In this document: one piece after another, positions 9,777 to 13,932 of the stretch | Layout: every line of letters begins with the position of its first letter | Numbering within the stretch: the stretch's first letter is position 1 | Assembly: GCA_019459455.1 (NCBI GenBank) | Contig: JAIBEX010000011.1 | Span: 62,001 to 126,000 of the forward strand | Length of the DNA: 64,000 nt | Direction of reading: 5' to 3' | Source: Weeksellaceae bacterium | GTDB lineage: Bacteria > Bacteroidota > Bacteroidia > Flavobacteriales > Weeksellaceae | Position numbers and translations under genes: made by a program | The notes under the pieces: model-generated | The model's database searches: none | What the model saw: only the letters and a program-made list of their open reading frames with translations | What the model was told of the DNA's origin: nothing

Positions 9777-11558
9777 TTAGTAATGACCCTTCTCTACATA
9801 ATGCGCGGCGATTTTTTCAGTCAGGGCAATTACGTTCGGTTGGTTGGTATATTTGGTGAATCTTCTGAGACCTGAAAGCATCATGCGCTGTTCGTCACCT
9901 TCTGCAAAGGAAACAATACCCTCTTTTGCAGCAGCGATGATCTTTTCAACCGCTTTATAGAGGTTCAGCTGTGCCATGGCCACTTCTACAGAATCGGCAG
10001 CAAAGCTTTTCTCAGCCCTCAGGATTCCGGATTCCGCCATATAGATCTGGTTCAGTATCTCGGAAGCGTTCAGCAGAAGATGCTGCTGCTTTTCGATATC
10101 CATCATGTATTTCTGAAGCGCGGCTCCCGAAACCATCAGGAAGACCTTTTTAAGGTTTGCCATAACGGCTTTCTCTTCACTCAACAGTTCAGAATAATCG
10201 GGAACTTCGAACGAAGGGATTCCGGTCAGTTCTTTTCCGATCGCCATTGCCGGACCCATAAGGTCAATCTGGCCTTTCATCGCCCTTTTGATGAGCATTC
10301 CTACCGCCAACAGACGGTTGATTTCGTTGGTACCCTCGTAAATCCTTGAGATCCTGGAGTCCCTCCAGGCTGCTTCCATCGGTGCATCCTCGCTGAAGCC
10401 CATTCCACCGTAGATCTGGATTCCTTCATCGGCAGTAAGCTGTGTTAAATCTGAAACAAAAACCTTTAATATTGAAGCTTCTACAGCAAATTCTTCCACG
10501 CCTTTCAGTTCTGCTTCCTGGTGGTCCATTCCGCCGGCAACGAGTTCGTCGATCTTGTCCTGTACATCTTTTGCGGCACGGTATGAACCTGCTTCCGAAA
10601 CGAAGATTCCGGTAGCCATCTCGGCGATTTTCTTTCTGATGGCGCCAAAAGTGGAGATTGCTACGCCAAACTGTTTTCTTTCGTTGGCATATTTTGTTGC
10701 CAATCCCAGAATTCTACGTTGTCCGTCCAGATTTGCGGCGGCCAGTTTAATCCTGCCGACATTCAGCGCGTTCAGGGCGATTTTGAAGCCGTTGTTCCTT
10801 TCACCTAAAAGATTCTCCACCGGCACCTTCATGTCGTTGAAAAATACCTGGCGGGTGGAGGAGGAGCGGATTCCCAACTTATGTTCTTCCTCACCGAAAG
10901 AAAGCCCTTCCGTTCCGGTTCTTTCTACAATAAATGCCGTAATGTTTTTGTCGTCATCAATCTTTGCGAAAACGATGAAAATCTCCGCAAAACCTGCATT
11001 TGAGATCCACATTTTCTGTCCGTTGATGACGTAGTGCTTTCCGTCTTCTGTAAGTTTCGCTTTAGTTTTCCCGGAATTGGCATCAGAGCCGGCGTCCGGT
11101 TCCGTGAGGCAGTAGGCGCCGAATTTTGCCCCTGTGGCAAGATCGGGAAGGTATTTTTTCTTCTGTTCTTCCGTTCCGTAAAGCAGGATAGGTAAAGTAC
11201 CGATGCCAGTGTGCGCGCCGTAAGCCGTAGCAAGTGAACCGTTGGCTCCGGAAATATAGTCGCAGGCCAGCATGGTGGTTACAAATCCCATCCCGAGGCC
11301 GCCATATTCCTCCGGTACGGTAACTCCGAGGAATCCCATTTCGCCCAGCTGACGCATTTTTTCTTCGGTCAGTGCATAATCTTTGTTTTCAAAACGTTCT
11401 CTGTGCGGAATAACTTCCCTGTCAATGAATTCCTTCGCAGAGTCGCGCATCATTTTCTGTTCGTCGGTAAGTTCTTCCAGGGTGAAGATATCGTTAGCTG
11501 GAGTTTCGGTAACCAAGAAGTCTCCTCCGATCAGTGATTTTTGTGTGGTATTGTCCAT
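9777..11558 (-). CDS. Acyl-CoA dehydrogenase (long form)
   Basis: This FAD enzyme performs the first step of beta-oxidation, making trans-2-enoyl-CoA. At 593 residues it has the usual ACAD fold (about 30-420) plus a C-terminal helical extension, as in VLCAD/ACAD9-like bacterial proteins. Visible motifs are CLTEPDAGSDANSGKTKA and MWISNAGFAEIF (FAD and substrate loops), QIYGGMGFSEDAPM, and RIYEGTNEINRLL, which carries the catalytic-base region. It is the last gene of the marR-fadB-fadA-acd cluster, separated from fadA by a four-helix-bundle gene with complementary flanks. Confidence 0.9.
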   Translation of the reverse strand: MDNTTQKSLIGGDFLVTETPANDIFTLEELTDEQKMMRDSAKEFIDREVIPHRERFENKDYALTEEKMRQLGEMGFLGVTVPEEYGGLGMGFVTTMLACDYISGANGSLATAYGAHTGIGTLPILLYGTEEQKKKYLPDLATGAKFGAYCLTEPDAGSDANSGKTKAKLTEDGKHYVINGQKMWISNAGFAEIFIVFAKIDDDKNITAFIVERTGTEGLSFGEEEHKLGIRSSSTRQVFFNDMKVPVENLLGERNNGFKIALNALNVGRIKLAAANLDGQRRILGLATKYANERKQFGVAISTFGAIRKKIAEMATGIFVSEAGSYRAAKDVQDKIDELVAGGMDHQEAELKGVEEFAVEASILKVFVSDLTQLTADEGIQIYGGMGFSEDAPMEAAWRDSRISRIYEGTNEINRLLAVGMLIKRAMKGQIDLMGPAMAIGKELTGIPSFEVPDYSELLSEEKAVMANLKKVFLMVSGAALQKYMMDIEKQQHLLLNASEILNQIYMAESGILRAEKSFAADSVEVAMAQLNLYKAVEKIIAAAKEGIVSFAEGDEQRMMLSGLRRFTKYTNQPNVIALTEKIAAHYVEKGHY

Positions 11559-11604
11559 GTTATTTAATTTATAATTTTGTTTTAGGATGGTAGACTAATA
11601 GAAA

Positions 11605-11617
11605 ATAGACGGATAGA
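11605..11617 (+). repeat. Left arm of the inverted repeat around the four-helix-bundle gene
   Basis: ATAGACGGATAGA is the exact reverse complement of 12073-12085. A third copy of the word lies at 11646-11655 (ATCTATCCGT), which can also form a local 10-bp hairpin with 11609-11618. Confidence 0.7.
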
Positions 11618-11674
11618 TGAAAGATAACCACAGTTACATATTGTTATCTATCCGTTTAATATCTTCTCCCTTTT

Positions 11675-12040
11675 CTATTCATTTAATGTGTTTTGAAAAA
11701 CCATCGTTGCCCTTTGCCATTCTTCAATTTTGATTTCGAGAATTTCTAAAATTTCTTTTGAAATATATTCCCGGTAGTTTGCTAAAAGCAATTGAGTTTG
11801 CAACTCAAAGGATGATCCTAAAGCAACATCAATAAAATGACTAAAAGACTTGTTGGTTCTGCTGGAGCCCTCTGCAATATTTGAAGGGATAGATATTGCG
11901 CAACGGTCCAGCTGACTTTTCATGCCATACTTCTCTGTTACTGGTAGAGTGGAGGTAATGTCTAAGATATTTTTTGCGACATCTAAGCCCATTTGCCAAA
12001 TCTTCAATTTCTTGAAATTATGTCTTTTAAAATCATTCAT
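11675..12040 (-). CDS. Four-helix-bundle protein (23S rRNA intervening-sequence protein family)
   Basis: This 121-residue protein belongs to the S23/IVP family, whose founders are encoded inside intervening sequences of bacterial 23S rRNA and which is related to the Avd accessory protein of diversity-generating retroelements. Family features seen are FKKLKIWQMGLDVAKNI at the N-terminus, YGMKSQLDRCAISIPSNIAE and GSSRTNKSFSHFIDVALGSS, then two more helices. It interrupts the fad operon between fadA and acyl-CoA dehydrogenase on the same strand. It is bordered by 13-base perfectly complementary repeats, as expected for an IVS-like element and not for an operon gene. Its molecular role is unknown; family members bind nucleic acid. 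Confidence 0.85.
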   Translation of the reverse strand: MNDFKRHNFKKLKIWQMGLDVAKNILDITSTLPVTEKYGMKSQLDRCAISIPSNIAEGSSRTNKSFSHFIDVALGSSFELQTQLLLANYREYISKEILEILEIKIEEWQRATMVFQNTLNE

Positions 12041-12072
12041 ATCAGAATTTTACTCGATAAAAGTGTCTATGC

Positions 12073-12085
12073 TCTATCCGTCTAT
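12073..12085 (-). repeat. Right arm of the inverted repeat around the four-helix-bundle gene
   Basis: TCTATCCGTCTAT is the exact reverse complement of 11605-11617. A direct repeat GTCTATG (12065-12071, 12080-12086) overlaps it. In the transcript this arm comes first, between the fadA stop and the four-helix-bundle start. Confidence 0.7.
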
Positions 12086-12099
12086 GTTCTGCTTGTCTT

Positions 12100-13278
12100 T
12101 TACAGCAGTTCAAATATCGAAGCTGCTCCCTGGCCTGTACCTACGCACATGGAAACCATACCGTATTTATTGCCGCGTTTCCTCATCTCGTCCAGAAGCT
12201 GGACCGTAAGTTTTGTTCCCGTACATCCCAGTGGGTGTCCGAGTGCAATGGCACCGCCGTTCACATTCAGGATGTCCGGATTAAGGTTTAATTCTTTTTT
12301 AATTGCGACGGATTGAGAAGCAAAGGCTTCGTTAAGTTCAATTAAATCGATGTCTTTTAATTCCAAACCGGCCTGCTTCAACGCCTTTGGAATGGCGTAA
12401 ATTGGCCCCATTCCCATAATTCTCGGTTCCAAACCTGCCGCTGCGTAAGCAACTAATCTTGCTTCGGGCTCCAGACCCAGTTCCTTCACCATTTCTTCGG
12501 ACATGACGATCACGAAAGCGGCACCATCGCTCATTTGCGATGAATTCCCGGCAGTAACACTTCCGCCGTTTGCAAAAACCGGACGGAGTTTGGCCAGACC
12601 TTCAAGGCTCGTGTCCTTTCTGGGTCCTTCATCTACTGAGAAATCAAACTTCTTCGTCTGCATTTTCTGGTTTTCATCCAGGAAGTTATATTCCACTGGG
12701 ATAGAAACGATTTGGTTTGCGAATTTTCCTTCTTCATTGGCTTTTAAAGCTTTTACATGAGATTCGTAGGCAAACTGATCCTGTTCTTCGCGGGAGATTT
12801 TATACTGATTCGCCACTTCTTCTGCAGTGTAACCCATTCCCCAATAGTAATCGGGATTTGTCTTTGCCATGGCTGTTTCAGGAACGGGTTTGTAACCGCC
12901 CATCGGAATATAGCTCATCGATTCGGTTCCGCCTGCGATGATGCAGTCGGCCATTCCTGCCTGAATTTTTGCGGAGGCAATTGCGATGGCTTCACTTCCG
13001 GAAGCACAGTATCTGTTTACCGTTACTCCGGGCACTTTGTCGGTCTGCAATCCCATGAGGGAAATTAAACGGGCAACATTCAGTCCCTGTTCGGCTTCGG
13101 GCATTGCGTTTCCGACAATCAGGTCATCTACGCGGTCCTTGTCGAGCTGCGGTACAGCGGCCATTAATTTTTCAATGACCGTTGCGGCCAGAACATCGGG
13201 TCTTGTAAATCTCAAACTGCCTTTTGGCGCTTTGCCAACAGCGGTTCTGAAACCTTTAATTATATATGCTTGTCTCAT
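12100..13278 (-). CDS. fadA: Acetyl-CoA C-acyltransferase (3-ketoacyl-CoA thiolase)
   Basis: This thiolase performs the last step of the beta-oxidation cycle, releasing acetyl-CoA. At 392 residues it has standard thiolase length. The nucleophile is Cys91 in NRYCASGSEA; the His motif is GGAIALGHPLGCTGTK and the second Cys is in CVGTGQGAA, all in the expected order. The start MRQAYIIKGFRTAVGK is typical. It is encoded downstream of the FadB-like multifunctional enzyme and upstream of the dehydrogenase. Its promoter-side gap (13279-13932) is occupied by the RAYT element. A biosynthetic acetoacetyl-CoA thiolase is the alternative, made unlikely by the context. Confidence 0.92.
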   Translation of the reverse strand: MRQAYIIKGFRTAVGKAPKGSLRFTRPDVLAATVIEKLMAAVPQLDKDRVDDLIVGNAMPEAEQGLNVARLISLMGLQTDKVPGVTVNRYCASGSEAIAIASAKIQAGMADCIIAGGTESMSYIPMGGYKPVPETAMAKTNPDYYWGMGYTAEEVANQYKISREEQDQFAYESHVKALKANEEGKFANQIVSIPVEYNFLDENQKMQTKKFDFSVDEGPRKDTSLEGLAKLRPVFANGGSVTAGNSSQMSDGAAFVIVMSEEMVKELGLEPEARLVAYAAAGLEPRIMGMGPIYAIPKALKQAGLELKDIDLIELNEAFASQSVAIKKELNLNPDILNVNGGAIALGHPLGCTGTKLTVQLLDEMRKRGNKYGMVSMCVGTGQGAASIFELL

Positions 13279-13329: not shown

Positions 13330-13363
13330 AATCTGTAAATAGCCTTTTGTTTGGTTTTGCGGA

Positions 13364-13376
13364 GCTCCGTAGGAGC
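13364..13376. repeat. REP-like palindrome 2 (GCTCC-GTA-GGAGC)
   Basis: This 5-bp stem is followed by GACC. Read on the minus strand it is GGTC-GCTCC-TAC-GGAGC. It lies directly before the RAYT stop codon and its partner is 13914-13927. Confidence 0.65.
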
Positions 13377-13382
13377 GACCTG

Positions 13383-13848
13383 TTAATTATCCTCAATCCA
13401 TTCAAACAAATATTTTGGATTATATTCTATATCAAATTTTTCCAAAAACTCTAAATATTCGTTTTTAAAAGATTTATTTTTATGATGTTCTTCTTGATTT
13501 AAAATATATTTCACAACCACATCAATACTGCTTTTTGAATAGGAAAATGCTCCGTAGCCTTCCTGCCAATTGAATTTTTCCGTCATCCATTTTTGGTCAT
13601 TAATGAATTTCGAAGAACCCGCTTTTATATCTCTAACCAAATCTGAAATTGTAATTGTGGGACTCATACTTACAAGCATATGAACGTGGTCGGGCATTGC
13701 ATATACAGCAAATAATTTCTGACCTCTGTTATGAACAATTCCTGTAATATTTATGCAATTCTTCCCTTTTTTCTTTTAAAATCAGATTTTGTCTTCCTTT
13801 AACAGCGAAAACAATTTGACTATAAATTTGTGTATAGGTGTTTGCCAT
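13383..13848 (-). pseudogene. REP-associated tyrosine transposase (RAYT, Y1/HUH family), frameshifted
   Basis: Two frames together give a normal-length Y1 transposase of about 155 residues. Frame one runs MANTYTQIYSQIVFAVKGRQ to EELHKY, then hits a stop at 13729-13731. Shifting frame near 13745-13758 restores ITGIVHNRGQKLFAVYA, MPDHVHMLVSM (the HUH metal motif) and VVVKYILNQEEHH (catalytic Tyr). A loss of two bases (AT) in a TATATT run explains the shift. Catalytic residues survive only in the downstream frame. The element is bordered by two palindromes on each side and sits in the fadB-fadA gap. A sequencing error would be the alternative to true decay. Confidence 0.8.
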
Positions 13849-13862
13849 AAAATTAACTGGTC

Positions 13863-13875
13863 GCCTCTGCGAGGC
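13863..13875. repeat. REP-like palindrome 3 (GCCTC-TGC-GAGGC)
   Basis: This 5-bp stem is preceded by GGTC, just upstream of the RAYT start codon. It has the same stem as palindrome 1, and the GGTC head is shared with palindrome 2 read on the minus strand. Confidence 0.65.
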
Positions 13876-13913
13876 TCAAAAAAACCTGTGACATTTTCTG
13901 CTATTATCAGTTC

Positions 13914-13927
13914 GCTCCTACCGGAGC
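13914..13927. repeat. REP-like palindrome 4 (GCTCC-TACC-GGAGC)
   Basis: This 5-bp stem is preceded by TTATCAGTTC. It matches the context of palindrome 2 on the opposite strand (TTAACAGGTC). It ends 5 bases from the fadB stop. Confidence 0.65.
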
Positions 13928-13932
13928 TTCCT

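Follow-up and report, generated by a model that had tools for sequence, protein, structure and literature searches.

Putative S23/IVP cassettes with inverted heptamer arms in protein operons of Bacteroidota and other bacteria

The fad operon described here carries a small gene of the S23/IVP type between its genes for thiolase and acyl-CoA dehydrogenase, and this gene is bordered by complementary repeats. The question is whether it is a stray intervening-sequence element in an mRNA, a part of an RNA switch, or one example of an element that is common in protein operons. The window, which is the whole stretch of DNA that was analysed (64,000 nucleotides from a Weeksellaceae bacterium), contains the following features at this locus.

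9777..11558, minus strand: acyl-CoA dehydrogenase gene, the downstream host gene (PF02771/PF00441/PF21263)
11592..11624, minus strand: downstream arm R, in mRNA sense TCTTTCATCTATCCGTCTATTTTCTATTAGTCT, inverted pair with F
11646..11664, minus strand: third copy F', inverted pair, right after the S23 stop codon and able to pair locally with R
11675..12040, minus strand: S23/IVP gene (23S_rRNA_IVP, four helix bundle), 121 amino acids (PF05635, E 4.3e-30)
12066..12098, minus strand: upstream arm F, in mRNA sense AGACAAGCAGAACATAGACGGATAGAGCATAGA, inverted pair
12100..13278, minus strand: thiolase gene, the upstream host gene (PF00108/PF02803)

The preliminary description of this DNA had recognised the S23/IVP identity of the gene, the perfect complements of 13 nucleotides that flank it, and a layout as in a 23S intervening sequence. 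The Pfam match and the repeats bear this out, the layout being found here inside an operon. The overall interpretation stands only in part: the gene and the complements hold, the term "stray" does not, and the RNA switch is weak. The perfect inverted pair (ATAGACGGATAGA at 11605-11617, TCTATCCGTCTAT at 12073-12085) is the core of the 33-nucleotide arms, which are 79% complementary, and the thiolase stop codon adjoins the outer edge of arm F. The core of the third copy, ATCTATCCGT at 11646-11655, lies within an arm pair 11600-11618 / 11646-11664. A 13-nucleotide complement between stretches of 62 and 115 nucleotides occurred in one of 20,000 mononucleotide shuffles and in six of 20,000 random pairs of stretches with these lengths. 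A chance origin of the match was rejected on these figures together with the distal controls given below.

S23 genes (PF05635) were sampled in 60 genomes of the family, 51 of which have a match. The best-scoring among the matches listed gave 163 frames, and 153 genes were kept after duplicates and genes with flanks below 250 nucleotides had been dropped. For each gene the upstream 150 nucleotides were scored against the reverse complement of the downstream 150 nucleotides, with a threshold of at least 26. This threshold was reached at 101 of the 153 genes, among the matches listed, so that the element of the window is no stray; the remaining 52 are without clear arms. Distal windows 400-550 nucleotides away gave 0/153 and shuffled flanks 1/153, while flanks of different elements scored against each other passed in 43 of 1530 cases. 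The relation of the arms is inverted and not direct (101 versus 15 of the 153, again among the matches listed), and their median length in the family sample is 34 nucleotides. Within the genus of the window 18 of 28 S23 genes pass the same threshold. The genome of the window itself has five PF05635 genes, all of which, judged by eye, have complementary word-like repeats alongside, with differing words.

Lag autocorrelation over the 202 arms of the family sample indicates a period of seven nucleotides: the same-letter frequency is 0.469, 0.438 and 0.399 at lags 7, 14 and 21, compared with about 0.31 after shuffling, and there is a smaller signal at lag 8. The array word of the window's S23 family is of the GGATAGATAATAGAC type. 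A lag scan of the window found no 7-nucleotide array, its own arms being too short to show the period alone. On the evidence of these sequences the complementary flanks of the window are one case of a wider pattern, in which the arms are degenerate arrays with a 7-nucleotide period. The arms also have a polarity. In 95 of the 101 elements the G-rich strand is that of the upstream arm (two opposite, four ties); counted by protein clusters the ratio is 35 versus 0, and nearby upstream 34-mers used as control split 50 to 40. The distance from the upstream stop codon to the outer edge of the upstream arm has a median of 2.5 nucleotides (n=92).

With respect to the neighbouring genes, 139 of 148 S23 genes of the family sample, among the matches listed, lie in sense orientation between two co-directional genes; eight junctions are mixed and only one gene is reversed. 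Together with the strand polarity, this placement suggests that one strand is being read by some factor. Across the phylum 157 of 198 genomes have a PF05635 match, and 11 of the 30 loci that were fetched pass the arm threshold, compared with 0/30 distal windows. Several of the loci below the threshold look by eye as if they had similar words.

A search of plasmids returned 49 records, mostly cyanobacterial, and 22 loci were fetched. Thirteen of these are over the arm threshold if one duplicated segment (L328 and L329) is counted twice; L337 among them is a weak pass (29 versus 25 distal), and L323, which scores 61 with longer flanks and 10 with 150 nucleotides, was entered as a miss. Arms were found at 10 of 18 cyanobacterial loci (the duplicated segment again counted twice), at both loci from Bacteroidota, at the single Azospirillum locus and not at the single Gemmatirosa locus. 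Arrays of TAGGGAG, AACAGGG, AAAAGGG and AGGTGAC stand beside S23 genes in Nostoc, Geminocystis and Anabaena, and the arms of the Azospirillum plasmid consist of GAGGACG-type words. We take the cyanobacterial-plasmid heptamers to be STRR repeats. The sense bias is weaker on plasmids, where both neighbours are annotated at 19 loci: 13 of these are co-directional, four reversed and two mixed. Packages of an S23 gene and arms are found in at least three bacterial phyla, with words going with the protein family.

In the cyanobacterial plasmid loci L323, L326 and L337 the S23 genes are located inside CRISPR operons, twice as cas6-S23-cas4 of type I-D and once as cas10/cmr2-S23-cmr3 of type III-B. 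Two plasmids of Calothrix brevissima NIES-22, the loci L328 and L329, share the same segment of about 3.5 kb, which contains an integrase as well as an S23 gene.

The states of the fad junction were compared among relatives. Acyl-CoA dehydrogenase was found in 44 genomes, 30 loci were fetched, and thiolase was found at 27 of them. The preliminary description had proposed to look for fad operons that lack the insert, and such operons exist, the spacer between thiolase and dehydrogenase being only 1-21 nucleotides long at seven of the 27 loci. By eye, five further spacers of 37-143 nucleotides are without visible arms, two of about 100 nucleotides have arms without a gene, nine contain an S23 gene and four contain other inserts. 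The nine S23 genes belong, also by eye, to three protein families with three words. It is therefore likely that the junction was filled repeatedly, also among members of the window's genus. A single ancient element seen once was rejected, as three S23 families occur at one junction and one word occurs at two unrelated junctions. A clean target duplication was not observed at any insertion, and the empty junctions that were found are too diverged to give exact insertion boundaries.

The two spacers with arms but without an S23 gene, L031 (genome G028) and L038 (genome G033), form word-repeat hairpins of about 100 nucleotides with ATGTACGGTGTACAAAG-type and GGTTAGAAGTTAGA-type words. They may represent cassettes without a gene, or what a deletion has left behind. 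Hairpins of the window's word that lack the gene are not scattered through genomes: for this one word 60 genomes gave 30 matches compared with 20 for the backwards control, and in the window's own genome (G000) it occurs at one place, that of the window. A REPIN-like dispersal of the window's hairpin was rejected on these counts.

At non-orthologous sites the arms of two elements cross-match (score of at least 26) in about 2% of the pairs if the proteins are less than 40% identical. The share rises to 4.1% at 40-50% protein identity, 13.9% (n=338) at 50-60%, 43.8% (n=73) at 60-70% and 63.3% (n=30) at 70-80%, and none of 2000 permutations of the elements attained the observed mean of the word-protein match. 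Different cassettes of one genome share no arms (0/111 pairs in four genomes of the genus), and genome-specific simple repeats were rejected for the genus on this count. Similar proteins thus have words in common at unrelated sites, whereas cassettes within one genome do not. The match between protein and word is loose, because some armed cassettes differ in their words although their proteins are 60-74% identical. At a junction read as carA-carB, for example, the proteins are 61-67% identical and the words differ, each still being self-complementary. Locus L009 at that junction has two words in tandem in its downstream arm (the reverse of the AAGAGCC type, then the ATCTGAC type) and cross-matches both L007 and L008; it resembles an intermediate of a word change.

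The subfamily of the window's protein comprises 52 loci in Chryseobacterium, Kaistella, Epilithonimonas, Flavobacterium and others. The counts refer to 48 of them (L289, L294 and L296 were left out, and L266 is without upstream sequence). The F core upstream together with the R core downstream is present at 44 of the 48 loci, any core occurs in only two of 96 distal windows, and the arms of 43 loci are over the threshold. Grouped by neighbours, 29 loci lie at the thiolase-dehydrogenase junction and 16 at one unrelated junction, with 15 of the latter over the threshold, and three lone loci fail. At the fad junction 28 of the 29 relatives have arms over the threshold, which disposes of the possibility, raised in the preliminary description, that orthologous fad operons all carry the gene without the flanking repeats. 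The second junction lies, judged by eye, between a TPR-repeat gene and an outer-membrane-like gene. At two of its loci, L276 and L285, the downstream arm stands in frame within the N-terminal signal-peptide-like region of the next outer-membrane-like protein; in L285 it reads SLSSIRLSSSRLSSIS..., and the repeat looks by eye as if it had been absorbed into the gene.

For the window gene and nine subfamily members 45 pairs were compared, 31 of which have 0<dS<2. The median dN/dS of these 31 pairs is 0.079 and the maximum 0.713, indicating purifying selection on S23. In 14 of the 20 subfamily gene pairs printed dS exceeds 1, and with dN/dS being low the arms of the window's subfamily have been kept beyond neutral expectation. 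Among solved structures the sequence search found a single relative, 2gsc (XCC0516, E 5e-15), which we take to be the Xanthomonas campestris S23 protein of the structure described in the literature. We know of no catalytic site in S23 proteins. The S23 query of the plasmid search also matched two records annotated as Avd, the accessory protein of diversity-generating retroelements, which would be a distant relative of S23; no reverse transcriptase was found among the four window proteins scanned with Pfam. According to excerpts of PMC4990558 the Xanthomonas S23 protein is a homopentamer, and S23 proteins have no known function.

Among the known systems the 23S rRNA intervening sequences (IVS) are the obvious point of comparison. 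As described in parts of PMC4990558, the Coxiella IVS with an S23 ORF has complementary borders and is excised by RNase III, and its ORF is reported to decay. The IVS of Coxiella and Leptospira are like the present elements in protein family, in size of about 0.4-0.5 kb, in having one ORF, in their complementary borders and in being inserted in a transcribed unit (PMC4990558, in extracts). The elements described here differ in that they lie between protein-coding genes and not in helix 9, 25 or 45 of a 23S rRNA gene, in that their arms are heptamer arrays with words common within a protein family, and in that S23 is under purifying selection, unlike the decaying ORF of Coxiella (same extracts). 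An S23/IVP protein and complementary borders are thus present, a location in an rRNA gene is not. The 23S rRNA genes are intact in nine copies from three relatives that have S23 genes; the draft genome of the window has no 23S match.

Short heptamer repeats are a second point of comparison. Hairpins of STRR repeats between genes, with unknown function, are described in a portion of PMC2670836, and arrays of TAACTGA in one of PMC4679880. For Nostoc trnL introns a section of PMC4476775 reports P6b stems of complementary heptamers with repeated class shifts and of unknown origin. Extracts of PMC4692102 give (GGGAATC)n arrays for two Xanthomonas genomes, in which 70 and 75 of the pairs are inverted ones, and heptamer repeats as over-represented in many bacterial genomes. 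In the same portions of these four papers the repeats are 7-nucleotide degenerate direct repeats in intergenic DNA, as here, and some of them form inverted pairs or hairpins like the S23 arms; the class shifts of the trnL stems (PMC4476775, same section) resemble the word differences at one site seen here. Tandem degenerate 7-nucleotide units in intergenic DNA, the hallmark of STRR, were found over the 202 arms of the family sample. Unlike the cassettes, the arrays are described in those portions without an S23 gene. The term "S23" has no occurrence in PMC4679880 and PMC4692102, and no link between S23 and heptamers was recognised among the PMC matches listed, where the two terms were seldom queried jointly.

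In the RAYT/REPIN system, too, inverted repeats cognate to a gene lie on both sides of it, and the repeats are proposed to co-evolve with the protein (PMC3116915, in part). In the same family of genomes RAYT/REP units have arms in 17 of 27 cases and are co-directional in 17 of 22. S23, however, is not a transposase, and in particular not one of the Y1 (HUH) type, PF05635 being its sole Pfam match; the words vary between S23 families, and many scattered copies of the window's word without a gene were not found. In its working the cassette resembles an intervening sequence without being one by location, and its layout resembles that of RAYT/REPIN without the enzyme.

On balance we think it probable that the S23 cassette at this locus is mobile and that its protein recognises the heptamer arms around its own gene. 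We infer recognition, mobility and mechanism from the features described above, which are the 7-nucleotide period, strand polarity and sense-in-operon placement in the family sample, the pattern of word sharing, the filled, gene-less and empty states of one junction, and purifying selection. The cassette consists of a single S23/IVP gene with an array of degenerate 7-nucleotide words on either side, the two arrays being inverted to each other, and it is placed in sense between two operon genes where read-through could express S23. It would move, and the S23 protein would bind the array of its own family strand-specifically, the most likely target being the RNA of the operon transcript. By holding or pairing both arms the protein might loop out the cassette and bring the upstream stop codon near the downstream start codon, and an insertion would then cost the host little. 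The same self-recognition would also mark the ends during movement of the cassette, which may be why words and protein diverge together.

How far RNA pairing itself is involved was looked at in silico and by comparison. A 507-nucleotide RNA closes a long stem around the gene (-119.6 kcal/mol, z -3.70), and the 83 nucleotides of the 3' side alone form a local hairpin (-18.6, z -2.48; 4 of 200 shuffles are as good). The third copy and two exclusive folds of the preliminary description are thus present or predicted, and both folds are possible on paper. F' is, however, found at only 17 of the 48 subfamily loci, 24 loci have only F upstream and only R downstream, and hairpins on the downstream side score at least 24 at 14. 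Over the whole family such hairpins are at background (2/101 versus 2/202 control stretches). The third-copy switch was rejected as a general feature on this background, and conserved mutually exclusive pairings, as expected of a riboswitch, were not seen. With these counts it seems extremely improbable that acyl-CoA dehydrogenase is controlled by R pairing alternately with the far F and with the third copy nearby. Nor is there an excess of G-U among the mismatches of the family sample arms (114 G.U versus 147 A.C; a control of four tRNAs only gave 9 G-U and 0 A-C), which speaks against a switch too, and the sense duplex is more stable than the antisense one in just 47 of 101 elements, which is no strand preference. 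Pairing of the arms in the mRNA is therefore not visibly selected base by base. Selection for an RNA stem through G-U excess or strand energy is not supported, and RNA pairing within the preferred reading, a self-recognising cassette, is not favoured by either measure. We also regard as quite unlikely an IVS-like process in which RNase III cuts a stem formed by the arms in the transcript, so that the gene is removed from fad and other operon mRNAs without ligation. The predicted stem, the sense orientation in operons and the Coxiella precedent (PMC4990558, in extracts) would agree with such a process; the missing G-U excess, which the tRNA control did show, argues against it, and an unligated cut of an operon mRNA would separate the co-transcribed genes.

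Mismatches without G-U bias and duplex energies without strand preference are what would be expected of DNA. The arms could be terminal inverted repeats of a DNA element that owes its movement to recombination or to an unrelated transposase acting in trans; S23 would then be cargo, the arms only DNA ends, and the sense orientation would survive as the gene has no promoter of its own. That word and gene travel together, and that RAYT/REP units are similar in layout and orientation, agrees with this, and still it seems unlikely to us. A fixed position of the G-rich strand would not be required of plain terminal repeats, but this strand is upstream in 35 clusters versus 0, words that differ between families would be odd for one trans-acting enzyme, and S23 itself is under purifying selection. 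The absence of G-U bias would also suit passive arms without function, in which slippage made the tandem 7-nucleotide repeats and template switching at quasi-palindromes kept them complementary. Words that differ in both arms of same-site cassettes, and the over-representation of heptamer repeats in many bacterial genomes (PMC4692102, in extracts), would fit as well. Such an origin leaves unexplained why the arms hug S23 genes, why they are polar, and why the word core is kept at 44 of 48 subfamily loci across genera, and we consider it very unlikely.

In its anatomy the element is an S23 cassette, mostly placed in sense at operon junctions, and the words in its inverted heptamer arms correspond to the protein family. 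A type that was known as a parasite of rRNA is thus also abundant in protein operons, among them CRISPR operons on plasmids of cyanobacteria. With S23 genes being enclosed by inverted heptamer arrays in Bacteroidota, in Cyanobacteriota and on a plasmid of Azospirillum, and with similar proteins having words in common, the questions of S23 function, heptamer origin and STRR hairpins come together and become testable by one binding assay. More tentatively, and as a possibility on which we would not rely, S23/IVP proteins may be the missing protein partners of heptamer repeats, each family reading its own 7-nucleotide word, with inverted word arrays as the ends of S23 cassettes. If so, the orphan STRR arrays of cyanobacteria, the heptamer stems of Nostoc trnL introns and the inverted (GGGAATC)n pairs of Xanthomonas, from which the solved S23 protein XCC0516 comes, would all be relatives without a gene that S23 proteins maintain or spread, and bacterial operons would contain a widespread repeat code that is read by proteins.

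The next junction upstream of thiolase in the window (13363-13928) contains a fragment of a Y1 transposase (RAYT-like) with the REP-like hairpins GGTAGGAGCG and GCAGAGGCG. The fragment matches only profile positions 32-121 of its family and therefore looks broken. In three genomes of the same genus (G001, G002 and G003) the coordinates place an S23 gene, and not a RAYT gene, upstream of thiolase.
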